Shown here: piece after piece, positions 24,648-61,881 of the stretch
How positions within the stretch are numbered: the first letter of the stretch is position 1
Layout of the letters: every line of letters begins with the position of its first letter
Origin: Halomonas sp. Bachu 37
GTDB taxonomy: Bacteria; Pseudomonadota; Gammaproteobacteria; Pseudomonadales; Halomonadaceae
DNA length: 64,000 nt
NCBI RefSeq assembly: GCF_039691755.1
Contig: NZ_CP137552.1
Location: 682,001-746,000 of the forward strand
Direction: 5' to 3'
Notes under the pieces: generated by a model
Told to the model about the DNA's origin: nothing
Databases searched by the model: none
What the model saw: only the letters and a program-made list of their open reading frames with translations
Translations under genes and position numbers: made by a program

Positions 24648-24659
24648 TAGTTTACCGGC

Positions 24660-24850
24660 ACTTTCAGGTGCTGGCGCTATGCCTATGCCAGTGAAACGGG
24701 AAGTCGGTGCGCTCCAGAAGCCATTCCGACGCTGCCCCCGCAACGGTGATCGAATCGAGACTAGCCTTCATGCCACTGTGTCATTGCATGGGAAGGCGGC
24801 TAGTCGGAGCGCAATGCTCATTCGTCAGCCCGGAGACCGGCCTGGAGGAT
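24660..24850 (+). promoter_or_regulatory. Cobalamin (B12) riboswitch
   Basis: The element begins TTTCAGGTGC at 24663 and contains the conserved pieces in order: GTGAAACGGGAAGTCGGTGC, CGACGCTGCCCCCGCAACGG, GCCACTG and GGGAAGGC, and the B12 box AGCCCGGAGACCGGCCTGG (24827-24845). It precedes btuB by about 155 nt. When cobalamin is plentiful such elements repress expression of the downstream uptake genes, so the btu genes are probably controlled here. Confidence 0.95.
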
Positions 24851-25003
24851 AATACCGAGTTGCGGTGGGCGGCTGCGGGGTGGTGCGCGTCCGCAGTGAT
24901 TGATCTTGACTGCAAGACTGCCTTCCTCGTTTACGTCTGTCCCGACTTGGTCACCAATGAAAAAAGGGTGCGGGTGCGCACACCAAGCAAGGGACTCCTC
25001 CTC

Positions 25004-44962: not shown

Positions 44963-45071
44963 GCGGCCGCTTGGAACCGGCATCTTTCGGGGATCGCTCG
45001 GTATCAGGTTATGAAAATTTTGCTACCCTGTGATGCTCGGATGTGAACGACTAACGTAACGGGCCGTGTCC

Positions 45072-56061: not shown

Positions 56062-57018
56062 ATGAAAACCTCAATTCTTACGCCGAAAACTCTGCTCGCC
56101 GCCATGGCGCTGGCGGGTGGCACAGTCAGCCTTCCGGTGATGGCTCAAGCGGAGCAGTGCGAGACAGTACGATTTGCCGAAGTTGGTTGGACCGATATCA
56201 CCACCACGACCGCATTTGCCACGGAAGTTCTGGAAGCGCTGGGTTATGCCACGAGCATCGATACAGTCTCGGTGCCGATCGCCTACGCAGGGATGCGCAA
56301 CAATGATTTCGACGTGTTTCTGGGTAACTGGATGCCTTCCATGGCCTCCATCAGCGACCCGTATGTCGAACGTGGCGAGGTCGATCGGCTTGCCGCCAAT
56401 CTTGAAGGCGCCAAGTACACACTGGCGGTTCCCCAGTATGTACATGATGCCGGCGTGACATCCATCGCCGACCTGAACGAACATGCCGAGCGATTCGAAC
56501 GCAGTATTCATGGCATCGAGGCGGGTAACGATGGCAATGAAATGATCGAGCAGATGATCGAGGATGACGCCCACGATCTGTCGGACTGGCAGGTGATCGA
56601 TTCCAGCGAGGCGGGAATGTTGTCTGAATTGCGCGCCAGGGTGCCCGATGAGACGTGGATGGTATTTCTGGGCTGGGAACCCCATCCGATGAACACCAAC
56701 TTCGATATCGCCTATCTCGAGGGCGGAGACGATTACTTCGGCCCCAACCTGGGAGGCGCCACGGTCTATACCAACACCCGCGGCGGCTACACCGATGAAT
56801 GTCCCAATGTGGGTGAATTCCTGAATAACCTCTCCTTCACTCTGGAAATGGAGAACCAGGTGATGAGCGCCCTCATGGATGAGGGCGAGGACCCGCGCGA
56901 GGCGGCACGTGCTTATCTGCAGGAGAACGATGAATTGCTCGACGAGTGGCTGGAAGGGGTGACCACTCGTGATGGTGAAGACGGCACCTCTGCTGTTCGC
57001 GCAGCGCTGGAAAAGTAA
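56062..57018 (+). CDS. choX: Choline/betaine ABC transporter substrate-binding protein ChoX-like
   Basis: 318 aa with signal peptide MKTSILTPKTLLAAMALAGG... ending in a VMAQA-type cleavage site. The OpuAC/ChoX fold shows VRFAEVGWTDITTTTAFATEVL, FDVFLGNWMPSM and MVFLGWEPHPMN; the Trp and Phe pattern fits an aromatic cage for choline or betaine. The gene starts with AGGAG at the right spacing and is divergent from betI. No ABC permease or ATPase gene follows: the next features are a hairpin and tRNA-Met, so it is an orphan binding protein in this window. Confidence 0.88.
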   Translation: MKTSILTPKTLLAAMALAGGTVSLPVMAQAEQCETVRFAEVGWTDITTTTAFATEVLEALGYATSIDTVSVPIAYAGMRNNDFDVFLGNWMPSMASISDPYVERGEVDRLAANLEGAKYTLAVPQYVHDAGVTSIADLNEHAERFERSIHGIEAGNDGNEMIEQMIEDDAHDLSDWQVIDSSEAGMLSELRARVPDETWMVFLGWEPHPMNTNFDIAYLEGGDDYFGPNLGGATVYTNTRGGYTDECPNVGEFLNNLSFTLEMENQVMSALMDEGEDPREAARAYLQENDELLDEWLEGVTTRDGEDGTSAVRAALEK

Positions 57019-57223: not shown

Positions 57224-57334
57224 GGTGGCCCCTTAGGTCCTCTCGCAACGCTAAACTGCGAACCCCGCCAGGCCCGGAAGGGAGCAACGGTAGTGGTGGA
57301 TGCGTGTGCCGGGATGTGGCTTTTGGGGCCGCCT
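57224..57334 (+). ncRNA. ffs: Signal recognition particle RNA (4.5S RNA)
   Basis: The terminal helix pairs GGTGGCCCC (57224) with GGGGCCGCC (ending 57333). Inside are CTCTCGCAACGCTA, the conserved tetraloop region CCAGGCCCGGAAGGGAGCAACGG and GATGCGTGTGCCGGGATGT, all characteristic of bacterial 4.5S RNA. It binds Ffh for membrane targeting. Its 3' side is the junction with the Tn7-like remnant. Confidence 0.95.
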
Positions 57335-57363
57335 CCATTTCTTCTGTTGTCGTTCTCAACGAA

Positions 57364-57416
57364 ACTTGGCACAGTTTTCACAAGACTTGTCATAATTTGC
57401 AAAAAAACTTGGCATA
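57364..57416 (+). repeat. Three direct repeats resembling TnsB-binding sites
   Basis: ACTTGGCACA at 57364-57373, ACTTGTCATA at 57385-57394 and ACTTGGCATA at 57407-57416, all in the same orientation, with start-to-start distances of 21 and 22 bp. Each is flanked by AT-rich spacer. Confidence 0.8.
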
Positions 57417-57456
57417 AACTATTTCTTAGTGGCACAACTACAGAAATGGTGATGCC

Positions 57457-57757
57457 ATGTATCGCCGAAAGCTCCGCCCCTCCCTCGTCAAAAATCTCTA
57501 CAAATTTGTCAGCGTCAAAAACTATGGCGTGCTAACCGTTGAGTCCTCGCTCGAATTTGATGCTTGTTCCAGTTTGAATACTCGGATGCTGTCGTGTCTT
57601 TTGAAGCGCAGCCCGAGGGCTTTCATTATTGTTACGAAGCCAAGACCCCTCTGTACACCCGGATTTTCGCTTAGTCAGTGCGTCGGGTATCGATACGTTC
57701 GTTGAAATTAAGCCTAACAGTATTTCTCCAAGCCTGATGTTAGACAACGGTTTATAG
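57457..57757 (+). pseudogene. Broken tnsA-type transposon endonuclease gene
   Basis: ATG at 57457 opens MYRRKLRPSLVKNLYKFVSV and ESSLEFDAC in frame 1. Near 57567 a lost T shifts to the next frame, which continues FQFEYSDAVVSFEAQPEGFHYCYEAKTPLYT. At about 57660 a lost C shifts again, giving DFRLVSASGIDTFVEIKP, then a short tail to TAG at 57757. Joined, this matches the N-terminal catalytic domain of Tn7 TnsA, which cuts the 5' ends of the element: the Glu in SSLEFD, the Asp in the YT-P-DF position and the Glu-X-Lys of EIKP are all present. The C-terminal TnsC-interacting part is missing. Confidence 0.8.
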
Positions 57758-57821
57758 CAAAAAGAGACTGCTGAAAGCCAAATTATAAACTTGATGTTGA
57801 TGACTGATCGCCAGGGAGACT

Positions 57822-59171
57822 ATGAAATATAAACTTAAATTTCTGGGACTCTTTTTAGTCATCGGACCTATGGCTGCCTTTTATCAAAATGAGGCCAAGG
57901 GTTTGGGGGAGCAGTTGATGTCTGAAAAAATCAACCAGGAGAGACAGTCCGACCAGAATCAAGATGACTCAGCTGCGGATAAAAAAGATAGCTCTGCTGC
58001 CCCTGACATGGATAAGTATGTCGATGACACATTCTCATGCCTTAAAACCTATAAGGGGCCTATTACGGACCTCAGTGGTGACCATAAGTATGATAATTTC
58101 AATCTCTACGCCGTTGGCAGCAAGCGGGTGCCGGTAGAAGCCCGGTTTGACGCCAGAGATGGAATTTGGCACCAACGAAAGTTTCCTGATGCACCCAACG
58201 GCCTTCCTGTAAAAATAAGTAGTGGCTCTGTCAACGGCAGTTCACTGCCTACTCCTGTCTGCTTTACGGGCGGTACGTTTATTGGAACCAACGATCCTGA
58301 AATGAATTGGAGGGAGGCAAAGCAAAGACCTCGTGGGCGAGCAATACTTTTGGTATCCGATAGGTCGATCATCGATGGTGCGCGCATAGACAACGTCGGA
58401 GAGGATGGAGTCGGCTTATTCGTTCCTCGCAAACACAAGGCAGTCACGTCTTACAATCGTCATATTGTGCGCAACACATGGTTTTCAAACATTTATGACG
58501 ATGCCATTGAGGAGACCCAAATGCAGACTATGCTTGTCGAGGACACGCTATTTGACGGTGTGATGCAAGCAGTAGCGACAGATCCGGCAGGAGGATCATC
58601 CGATGCTTATCGAAAAAATCTGGTAACACTTAATGAAGTATTGATTCGAACTAAGCCTGTGCCACATCCAGATAAAAAAAGAGCTCCTCACGGCGTGTAT
58701 CATGGTTTTGGCTTGAAAATGCGTTCGGCGACTCCCCATGGCTGGTCGTTTCAAAAGTCCGTGTTTGCCTATGATGACCGTGAAAAGCCCCATGGTAATG
58801 GTTTTGCAAGTCGGTTTCGGGCTGCACTTTCAACAACGGAGTCTTGCTCGGATAATGTGATCGCATGGATGGGAGACGGTGCCTGGCCGGCAAAAGTGCT
58901 GGTTGAGAGAGGGGCAATCAAAGAGATTGAGAATCTGAATAAGAAATTCCCCGGCTGTTTTACTATCCTTGAAGGTCGAGAAGGTCGGCAATTTTGGGAA
59001 GGGGCTCGTAGGAATTGGATCAATTGCCACCCCCAGGTTGGGCGCATTCCTAAAAATGTCAGTCCTAAACTTCCCCATGTGGACCCTTCATCCGATGCCT
59101 CAAAATGCGACACCAATGCTTATGGAGGAGGCGGCACAAATATCTCAGCAACGATCTCATTAGCCCCCTGA
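57822..59171 (+). CDS. Hypothetical protein with signal anchor and beta-helix-like region, probably acquired
   Basis: 449 aa. The N-terminus (MKYKLKFLGLFLVIGPMAAFY) is a signal peptide or membrane anchor, followed by a Gln/Asp/Ser-rich linker (residues 35-65). The middle (about 150-330) has repeated short Val/Ile/Asp strands such as RSIIDGARIDNVGEDGVGLFV, NTWFSNIYDDAIEETQMQTML and TLFDGVMQAVATDP, a pattern of right-handed beta-helix proteins. Paired Cys residues occur in the C-terminal part. I do not recognise a family and no catalytic residues are clear. The gene is visibly AT-richer than its surroundings and sits next to the Tn7-like remnant, so it may be transposon cargo. Confidence 0.7.
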   Translation: MKYKLKFLGLFLVIGPMAAFYQNEAKGLGEQLMSEKINQERQSDQNQDDSAADKKDSSAAPDMDKYVDDTFSCLKTYKGPITDLSGDHKYDNFNLYAVGSKRVPVEARFDARDGIWHQRKFPDAPNGLPVKISSGSVNGSSLPTPVCFTGGTFIGTNDPEMNWREAKQRPRGRAILLVSDRSIIDGARIDNVGEDGVGLFVPRKHKAVTSYNRHIVRNTWFSNIYDDAIEETQMQTMLVEDTLFDGVMQAVATDPAGGSSDAYRKNLVTLNEVLIRTKPVPHPDKKRAPHGVYHGFGLKMRSATPHGWSFQKSVFAYDDREKPHGNGFASRFRAALSTTESCSDNVIAWMGDGAWPAKVLVERGAIKEIENLNKKFPGCFTILEGREGRQFWEGARRNWINCHPQVGRIPKNVSPKLPHVDPSSDASKCDTNAYGGGGTNISATISLAP

Positions 59172-59498: not shown

Positions 59499-60629
59499 AT
59501 GACGCCTATTGAACCGTCGTGTGGCAGGGTCGTGGTCTATCCCGATCATGTTCACGAAACCGAGCATGAACGAATCACTCATGGCGAACTTGCCAAGAGG
59601 CTTGCGAAGCTTCAAGGGCTGGAGTTCGCAGGCGAGTACGATCCATCCCTGCATGACGACGACAACGTGTATTTTGTCCCCATCGACACCATTACCGATG
59701 TAGACAAGGCGCGTCGGCTGGGCATACGAAGTGAGCATGATCTGTTCGGCGGTGTCGTGCCTCAGCCATTCATCGCGACGAAATCGATTACGCATCCTCT
59801 TATCAGCCTCGATGCAAAAGCGCCGCAGGGGTGGTCCAGCAATTTCGCTCGGCAAGTGAGCGACGCTGTATTTGCCGGATTCTCCGTGTTTTCACTGGAT
59901 GATGCGCGCAAAGCAGGAGCGCAACTGCTCGAGAGGGGGCCGCTGCGCACGAAGCTGGTGCGCTCTACTGCCGGGCGAGGTCAGGCGCTGATCAGCCGCC
60001 TCGAGGAGCTCGAGGAGATACTGGCGACACTGGATGAAAATGAGATAGCGACCTACGGTCTCGTGCTGGAGGAACACATTGAAGACATCGTCACCCATAG
60101 TGTTGGCCAGGTACGGGTAGGCGAGCTGCTCATTTCCTATTTCGGTACCCAGCACCTTACCGAAGACAACAGTGGAGACATGGTCTATGGCGGAACGGAC
60201 CTGGTCATCGTCAAGGGCGGTTTCGATACGTTACTTGCGCTCGATCTGCCTGAAGAGATCAGGCTGGCGGTAGCCCAGGCACAGACCTATGACGTTGCAG
60301 CAACGAAGTGCTTTCCCGGTTTCTTCGCCTCGCGGCGCAATTACGACGTGGCATATGGCCGTGATAGTCAGGGGCGTCATATCTCCGGCGTATTGGAACA
60401 ATCATGGCGTATCGGTGGCGCCAGCAGTGCGGAAGTCTTTGCCTTGGAAGCCCTGCGGTCGGCGGCGGAGGGTCAGGTCATTCGGGCCTCATCGATGGAA
60501 ATCTATGGTACCCAGCAGGCACCGCCTTCTCATGCGACCATTCTCTTCAGCGGTGATGATGCACAGGTCGGCCCCATCACGAAGTGTGTAACGGTAGATT
60601 CCTATGTCGACGTACAGCGAAGCCATTAA
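59499..60629 (+). CDS. DUF3182 family protein (ATP-grasp-like)
   Basis: 376 aa. It resembles DUF3182, a family with an ATP-grasp-like outline: early VVVYPDHVHETEHERITH, a mid part TKLVRSTAGRGQALISRLEEL near 145 and LVLEEHIEDIVTHSVGQVRVG near 190 (a His/Asp-containing strand pattern). The biochemical role is unknown. GGAG is placed seven bases before the ATG. The last 26 bp overlap the downstream hydrolase gene, so translation is coupled. Confidence 0.8.
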   Translation: MTPIEPSCGRVVVYPDHVHETEHERITHGELAKRLAKLQGLEFAGEYDPSLHDDDNVYFVPIDTITDVDKARRLGIRSEHDLFGGVVPQPFIATKSITHPLISLDAKAPQGWSSNFARQVSDAVFAGFSVFSLDDARKAGAQLLERGPLRTKLVRSTAGRGQALISRLEELEEILATLDENEIATYGLVLEEHIEDIVTHSVGQVRVGELLISYFGTQHLTEDNSGDMVYGGTDLVIVKGGFDTLLALDLPEEIRLAVAQAQTYDVAATKCFPGFFASRRNYDVAYGRDSQGRHISGVLEQSWRIGGASSAEVFALEALRSAAEGQVIRASSMEIYGTQQAPPSHATILFSGDDAQVGPITKCVTVDSYVDVQRSH

Positions 60630-61383
60630 GGTCTCGGTAGAAGATGACCAGATTGCCGGAACCTTTCTCACTCCTGAGTCGCGCACTCCCGGTGTACTGT
60701 TCGTGCACGGCTGGGGAGGCAGCCAGGAGCACGACCTGCACCGCGCCAAAGGGATCGCCGGGCTTGGCTGTGTTTGTCTGACATTCGATCTGCGCGGCCA
60801 TGGGGGGACGTTGGCTCAGCAACAATCCGTCAGCCGGGCGGATAATCTGGAGGATGTCATCGCCGCCTACGATCAGCTCGCCAGCCATCCGACCATCGAT
60901 GGCGGAGATATCGCCGTGGTGGGCAATAGCTACGGCAGCTATCTGGCGTCGATATTGACCACGCGACGCCCAGTGAAATGGCTTTCGTTAAGCGTGCCCG
61001 CACTCTATCGAGACGAAAATTGGAGCGTGCCTAAAGGACAGCTCGATCGAGAAGATATCGCCGAGTATCGAAATGCGCCCGTCTCCCCGAGCGAGAACCG
61101 GGCCTTGGCGGCGTGTGCTGCATTCGAGGGAGATGTTCTGATTGTCGAGGCGGAGCACGACCACCTTATCCCTCATGCGACTACCATGAGCTATCGCAGG
61201 GCGTTCGAGCGCGCGCATTCCCTGACGCATCGCATTCTGGATGGGGCCGACCACGCCATGAGCAGCGAAGCGTGCCAGCAAGGCTATACGTCGATTCTGG
61301 TCGGCTGGGTTACGGAGATGGTCATCGGTCGCCGCGTGGGCAGCATCGAGCCGAGTGCATTCTCCAAGCCGAGATCAGGCTAG
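60604..61383 (+). CDS. Alpha/beta hydrolase
   Basis: 259 aa. The alpha/beta hydrolase core begins PGVLFVHGWGGSQEHDLHRA near residue 28 (oxyanion region). The nucleophile elbow is VVGNSYGSYLASIL near 104, the acid is in VLIVEAEHDHLIPH near 178 and the His is in ILDGADHAMSS near 215, so the Ser-Asp-His triad looks complete. No signal peptide, so cytoplasmic. The substrate is unknown. It overlaps the DUF3182 gene by 26 bp, which suggests that the two proteins work together. Confidence 0.85.
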   Translation: MSTYSEAIKVSVEDDQIAGTFLTPESRTPGVLFVHGWGGSQEHDLHRAKGIAGLGCVCLTFDLRGHGGTLAQQQSVSRADNLEDVIAAYDQLASHPTIDGGDIAVVGNSYGSYLASILTTRRPVKWLSLSVPALYRDENWSVPKGQLDREDIAEYRNAPVSPSENRALAACAAFEGDVLIVEAEHDHLIPHATTMSYRRAFERAHSLTHRILDGADHAMSSEACQQGYTSILVGWVTEMVIGRRVGSIEPSAFSKPRSG

Positions 61384-61401: not shown

Positions 61402-61881
61402 TCATGCAGGGCGGTGCTGCTCAGTGAAGCGCTGCATGATCTCCAGGGTTTCCTGACTGACATGATGCTCCATGCCTTCGGCATCGATGCGGGCGGTGGT
61501 GTCGCTGACACCGAGTGCACGCAGGAAATGCAGCACGATATCGTGGCGTTCTCTTGAATTACGTGCCATGACCCGGCCGGCCTCGGTCAAGAAAAGCGAG
61601 CGATAGGGCTTGCTGTTGACCAGCCCCAACTCCTTGAGCCGCCGAATCATTTTCGATACGGTCGCTTGGCTTACCGCCATCCGCTGGGCGATATCCGCCG
61701 AGCGTGCCTCGCCCTGATGTTCCAGCAGATCCCCGATCAATTCGACATAATCCTCGACCAGCTCCGTCTCGTGGGCATTGCGCACGGTTTCGTACTGGCG
61801 TGCGTGCTGCTCGGTTGGCGGCAGGGCGTCCGAGACATGGTGTGGCGAGCTGGATGGGGGGGTCGTCGAGGAGTCGCTCAT
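61402..61881 (-). CDS. mntR: Manganese-responsive regulator MntR
   Basis: 159 aa. After a Ser/Pro-rich N-terminal tail the DtxR-type winged helix runs about residues 45-95 (VELIGDLLEHQGEARSADIAQRMAVSQATVSKMIRRL, shown as GEARSADIAQRMAVS and QATVSKMIRRL). The dimer and metal-binding part has LTEAGRVMARNSRERHDIVLHFLRAL and GMEHHVSQETLEIM, with the His/Glu set of MntR. It represses manganese uptake when Mn(II) is high. It is divergent from the ABC transporter genes, and a palindrome lies between. Confidence 0.92.
   Translation of the reverse strand: MSDSSTTPPSSSPHHVSDALPPTEQHARQYETVRNAHETELVEDYVELIGDLLEHQGEARSADIAQRMAVSQATVSKMIRRLKELGLVNSKPYRSLFLTEAGRVMARNSRERHDIVLHFLRALGVSDTTARIDAEGMEHHVSQETLEIMQRFTEQHRPA

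Follow-up and report, generated by a model that had tools for sequence, protein, structure and literature searches.

In the 64,000-nucleotide stretch of Halomonas sp. Bachu 37 DNA analysed here (the window), ffs, the gene of the small SRP RNA, lies on the + strand at 57232..57328 (Rfam RF00169, 70.6 bits) and is followed on the same strand by one end of a transposon and the broken first part of a tnsA gene. The terminal inverted repeat of this tnsA-side (right) end starts with TGTCG and spans 57348..57373, recognised both by an end model built from relatives and by a model of the far end of the Vreelandella sedimenti element. Three TnsB-type repeats with equivalents in relatives (57363..57374, 57384..57395 and 57406..57417), of the type ACTTGKCAYAR, stand in the same orientation 21 and 22 bases apart, bearing out an earlier note on this DNA that had described three such repeats at TnsB-like spacing. 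The tnsA pseudogene consists of pieces at 57457..57570 (residues 1-37), 57561..57671 (residues 38-68) and 57659..57754 (residues 69-89), and of further decayed tnsA DNA, recognised by alignment to relatives, that occupies 57755..57813 and ends at a deletion joint. Beyond the joint lie a gene of 449 residues (57822..59171, +), a DUF3182 gene with an overlapping gene that we take to be alpha/beta-hydrolase-like (59499..61383, +), and, on the - strand at 61402..61881, a gene that is presumably MntR-like. Elsewhere in the window a cobalamin riboswitch is found at 24649-24859 (102.1 bits).

The transposon end directly behind ffs, which the earlier note had proposed, was confirmed with a nucleotide profile of the right end built from 14 genomes of the genus, the window's own genome excluded. 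This model aligns from its position 1 at 57348-57585, scoring 162.8 bits (E 8.2e-49, seven sequences searched); among the controls, 79 stretches of 400 bp taken from 900 bp downstream gave no listed match, shuffled stretches reached at most 0.7 bits, and reverse-complement stretches reached up to 21.7 bits, with every such score of at least 5 bits coming from an end-carrying genome. Alignment with relatives likewise places the terminus at the TGTCG of 57348, and 24 of the first 26 terminal bases (57348-57373) are identical to the far end of the V. sedimenti element. The TGT first taken for the terminus is present at 57345-57347, but it begins 16 bases past the Rfam end of ffs, not 11, and the homologous terminus is the one three bases further on. 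As in type I-F3 CRISPR-associated transposons (CASTs) at ffs, the insertion lies directly behind the RNA gene with its tnsA end towards it. A TGT-type end with TnsB-type repeats is present on one side only: three left-end models and simple patterns find no left end in the window, the models matching just the right terminus and, upstream of ffs, a 3.3-bit spot at 56410. Because no left end is left to mark its place in the window, no second copy of the 5-bp target duplication could be located. Another insertion, since lost, that would have left a 5-bp scar in the gap from ffs to the terminus was also considered and dropped, since by eye the extra bases before TGTCG hold no tandem 5-mer.

Identification of the gene fragments as tnsA comes from a profile of 34 I-F3 TnsA proteins from outside Halomonadaceae, drawn from 58 named loci after exclusion of the 12 Vreelandella/Halomonas loci and of frames outside 190-260 residues. 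The three pieces, in different frames, match this profile as consecutive, ordered residues with 59.2, 33.2 and 10.2 bits; the first two rank first and second among the 1625 stop-to-stop segments (20 residues or longer) of the whole window (E 1.3e-16 and 3.1e-9), and the third is weak in the same set (E 0.025). A 256-residue segment near 45060 on the + strand scores above this third piece (12.2 bits, E 0.0086), probably by chance. The earlier note had seen an inward-facing TnsA-type gene broken by two one-base deletions; the pieces are real, but alignment to relatives reveals at least four frame-breaking gaps plus a truncation, with homology ending at 57813/57814, at about codon 120 of roughly 206. 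The proposed profile search of the joined translation gave a divided answer: the Pfam TnsA model reaches 19.9 bits, below its cut-off of 26.5, NCBIfam gives nothing close to a cut-off, and in both collections the frame pieces, single or joined, match weakly or not at all above cut-off, but full TnsA sequences do match, as does the I-F3 profile. PDB chains named PseTnsAB, which we take to belong to a Pseudoalteromonas I-F3 system, match the pieces with E 1.4e-15, and ten plasmid TnsA records match at 35-56% identity, five of them at 54-56%; in both of the plasmid records inspected, tnsABC and tniQ are accompanied by type I-F cas genes. A TnsA match is found in 28 of 275 genomes of the family, the window's own included, and among tnsA genes whose frame is full-length, V. 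sedimenti QX-2 has the nearest, at 77% identity.

The Vreelandella/Halomonas relatives that share this end and this tnsA reveal what it leads into. Judged by the presence of gene types, five genomes carry the full I-F3 set at ffs on one contig (G242, G241, V. titanicae BH1 or G267, H. alkaliantarctica FS-N4 or G228, and V. glaciei DD39 or G207), arranged as tnsA-tnsB-tnsC-xre followed by tniQ-cas8/5-cas7-cas6, the array and the left end. At the close of each array the repeat is altered and the spacer matches ffs. In the window the stretch matched by this last spacer is 57270..57301 on the + strand, with the PAM CC at 57268-57269 and 23 of 32 positions matching; the mismatches fall at positions 4, 6, 12, 13, 24, 27, 29, 30 and 32, so that four of the nine are at sixth positions, and type I-F effectors do not read every sixth base of the guide match. 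This is the best place for the spacer in the whole window, the runner-up having 20 matches. The element of H. alkaliantarctica FS-N4 is 26,495 bp long between two copies of TTTCT, and genome G229 holds the exact uninterrupted site that corresponds to it. Next to ffs in G241 (L054:1220-3745), tnsA runs into tnsB as a single open frame of 842 residues, a natural TnsA-TnsB fusion. The earlier note had asked for relatives with intact elements and a CRISPR array, and whole CASTs whose arrays carry an ffs-matching spacer indeed occupy the same position; the same sequence was found in no relative outside a mobile element.

A close named comparison is the CAST of V. sedimenti QX-2 (G232; L034, L153), which shares with the window the TnsA at 77% identity, 24 of 26 bases of the terminal repeat and the position behind ffs, and differs in having tnsABC and xre at ffs, a separate contig with tniQ, cas8/5, cas7, cas6 and an array, a last spacer that matches ffs at 21 of 32 positions, and a cargo-only unit stacked behind it. 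Contig C6 of the same genome holds weaker TniQ, TnsC and TnsB matches side by side at about 158058-160788, probably a second, distant Tn7-like element. With I-F3 CASTs at ffs in general the window has in common the position behind ffs, the tnsA end facing it, the TGT terminus, the TnsB-type repeats and the TnsA sequence, whereas it retains a single end and roughly half of tnsA, itself broken, in a genome where no tnsB, tnsC, tniQ, cas7 or array repeat was found. The orientation is also that of Tn7, whose tnsA end faces its attachment gene; Tn7, however, reads glmS with the TnsD protein and uses no guide RNA.

The earlier note's observation that no tnsB, tnsC, tniQ or cas genes remain in the window holds, and for TnsB, TnsC, TniQ, Csy3 (Cas7) and the CRISPR repeat it extends to the genome: searches of all 3,489,967 bases found no match to any of the four proteins and no copy of the CAST array repeat at up to two mismatches. 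A relative's proteins served as the TnsB, TnsC and TniQ queries, and the same search recovered TniQ, TnsB, TnsC and the repeat in other genomes and Csy3 in one control. The genome thus shows neither an intact tnsA-tnsB-tnsC set, its tnsA being broken and the relative's TnsB and TnsC unmatched, nor a tniQ-cas-array unit with a private ffs spacer, TniQ, Csy3 and the repeat being unmatched. Two weak matches to the broad TniB family (25.4 and 23.2 bits, in frames of 776 and 890 residues) are probably unrelated ATPases, since this family also gives matches in 13 of 14 control genomes. Genome searches with the Pfam TnsA and TniQ models gave no signal in the controls either and are not counted as evidence.

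Downstream, the 449-residue gene starts right after the joint at 57813/57814, which lies nearly at its ribosome-binding site. The gene occurs in 3 of the 275 family genomes, twice (in the window and in G248) as the immediate downstream neighbour of a broken tnsA at ffs and once, in G230, on a different contig from ffs. Its product has no match in Pfam, NCBIfam or PADLOC, the PDB match being only 0.28, and it is possibly surviving cargo. The G248 remnant (L033) resembles the window in having a broken tnsA at ffs followed by this same gene, at 86% identity; it differs in retaining about 140 bp more between the two and in the region further downstream. The DUF3182 gene was rejected as an ancestral neighbour of ffs: matches occur in 3 of 82 genus genomes including the window's, about 355 kb separate it from ffs in the clearest other case, and of 79 ffs-downstream stretches only the window's contains DUF3182 and none the hydrolase (the window's stretch in that set ends at 60500). 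The ffs-DUF3182 interval that the earlier note had meant to compare is therefore not a conserved one. The MntR-like gene, by comparison, is a chromosomal neighbour common to relatives, present in 11 of the 79 stretches (1.5 to about 20 kb long) and located beyond the elements in G228, G241, G242, G248 and G261. In G228 the left end is followed by a gene of 253 residues and then by the MntR-like gene; the 253-residue gene, present in 20 of the 79 stretches, is nowhere in the window. Given that it is absent while the MntR-like gene is present, the loss may have continued past the left end and reached chromosomal DNA, or a replacement may have taken place in that segment.

A survey of the genus places the window in a wider record. 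Of its 82 genomes, 79 gave an ffs-downstream stretch (all except G236, G243 and G244), and a right end scoring at least 19.8 bits is present at 29 of these loci, 28 of them above every control; the other 50 have no end above threshold. Behind the end, tnsA and tnsB stand in line at eight of the 29 loci (in G212 with a broken tnsA) and are broken or interrupted at two more (G200 and G224), and the remaining 19, the window among them, have no tnsB within the available stretches of about 1.7 to 20 kb. The TnsB-type repeats are partly lost in the remnants of H. citrativorans JB380 (G204) and G248. In G241, G207 and G242 an older right end lies within about 20 bp behind the left end of a newer element, scoring above 120 bits in the first two and 40.9 bits in G242, and in V. 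sedimenti QX-2 the first unit is directly followed by a second, 17,680 bp long, which has both ends but matches neither tns nor cas genes; in these four genomes more than one element has therefore landed at the same place. The second V. sedimenti unit (contig C58, about 199760-217440; L212, L213) has TTTC(T) borders and metabolic-looking genes, and we read it as cargo-only, either non-autonomous or decayed. In two genomes, G261 (L036, L108) and G256 (L049, L110), 53 bp from the 3' part of ffs are repeated beside an old CAST end, with the full ffs about 8.5 kb and about 5 kb upstream, respectively, as if another integrating element had used the 3' end of ffs.

This record bears on whether the end in the window might be retained by selection, as a target-immunity tag shielding ffs from new insertions or because it belongs to the 3' region of that gene. 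That ends lacking tnsB are so common at ffs (19 of 29), and that the window's three repeats are still legible, would fit such retention; repeats that have partly decayed in two remnants, four genomes in which newer elements have gone in ahead of older ends, and the 50 of 79 loci with no end above threshold argue the other way, and we consider this explanation improbable. Less probable still is a Tn7-like element lacking CRISPR-Cas from the outset, with a TnsD/TniQ protein to direct it to ffs. It would accord with the lack of cas7 and of the CAST array repeat in the window's genome, but tniQ-cas and a spacer matching ffs are present both in the relative whose full-length tnsA is nearest and in another five elements that occupy this site, and the available part of a review gives ffs as a guide-RNA site of I-F3b elements (PMC11406308). 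The 17.7 kb cargo-only unit behind the V. sedimenti CAST, with both of its ends, illustrates a further alternative, in which the surviving unit of end and cargo was a non-autonomous element moved by a helper located elsewhere; with no left end in the window and no helper TnsB found in its genome, this is very unlikely. Chance resemblance, conceivable for each single sign (a TGT, short repeats, short frames) in isolation, is refuted to a negligible probability by the profile scores of the end and of tnsA and by their common position behind ffs.

We conclude that 57348-57813 of the window is very probably what is left of a type I-F3 CAST, now dead, whose chromosomal attachment site was ffs. The remnant is real and, though degraded, belongs to a known kind of element at an attachment site that is also known; the I-F3 CASTs found at this place have the end and the tnsA closest to its own, and the earlier note's proposal that a Tn7-like element once inserted here and was lost apart from this end is supported by the relatives in which the same end and tnsA open into CASTs. 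Counted against this conclusion are the lack in the window of a left end and of a recognisable target duplication, a spacing of 46 bp in the window compared with 40-43 bp in relatives, and the Pfam TnsA score below cut-off. By analogy with those relatives, this particular copy would have carried cas genes. In the live element, which would have worked as its whole relatives seem to, TniQ-Cascade with a private guide would have bound ffs at about 57270-57301 and recruited TnsC and TnsAB, which would have pasted the element just behind ffs with its tnsA end towards the gene and a 5-bp target duplication. A later deletion starting inside tnsA would have removed tnsB, tnsC, tniQ, the cas genes, the array and the left end, probably together with part of the neighbouring chromosome, and the remaining tnsA would then have gathered frameshifts in slow decay, leaving what is presumably a functionless sequence. 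The first step of loss may be common to G248, where a broken tnsA is joined to the same 449-residue gene.

The spacing merits separate consideration. Measured to the first TGT after the guide-matched stretch, a rule that may be a few bases off the true terminus, the distance from protospacer to terminus is 40-43 bp at all 15 other genus loci that gave a value (V. sedimenti QX-2 gave none in this set and 41 among the named loci), compared with 46 bp in the window; similarly, the gap between ffs and terminus is 13-16 bases at all 22 other loci with a value, six having given none, and 19 in the window. Among the named loci, 32 of 58 are ffs-adjacent, no ffs having been found upstream of the other 26. 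The nine from Halomonadaceae all show 40-43 bp and the PAM CC, and of the 23 others 22 show 46-52 bp and one 57 bp, with the PAM TC in 20, where an equal guide register in the other genera is taken from the PAM and from the accessible portion of PMC12774636 rather than from their arrays. That same portion describes TC as the predominant PAM at ffs. For the V. cholerae system, the passages at hand give spacings of 48-50 or 49 bp (PMC11702153, PMC8188705), and those of PMC8649781 give 50-60 bp for predicted CAST sites.

Target immunity would be expected to limit stacking. As far as the consulted sections go, I-F3 systems seem to have it (review, PMC11406308), it is reported for a Shewanella element (PMC12452197), and tandem insertions in the laboratory are known, though rare because of it (PMC11702153); the last source also proposes that related CASTs blind to each other's ends escape it. 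If diverged ends escape immunity in this way, the stacking is explained without anything new. We tentatively suggest, at somewhat less than even confidence, that the ffs CASTs of Halomonadaceae combine a shorter ruler (40-43 versus 46-52 bp, about one helical turn less) with stacking despite target immunity, and that the window is one layer of this record with an intermediate 46 bp. A literature search for CASTs or Tn7-like elements and ffs in Halomonas found nothing on the subject by titles and the starts of abstracts; the stacking and the shorter spacing, each no more than possibly new, are the parts worth following.

Taken alone, the window is an ordinary fossil, and its value is as an entry to a natural record of RNA-guided insertion in which whole, decayed, stacked and empty stages stand side by side in one genus. 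Such a record could be used to learn how often CASTs home to their site, how natural elements evade target immunity, which cargo is left behind, and how fixed the distance from guide to insertion is.
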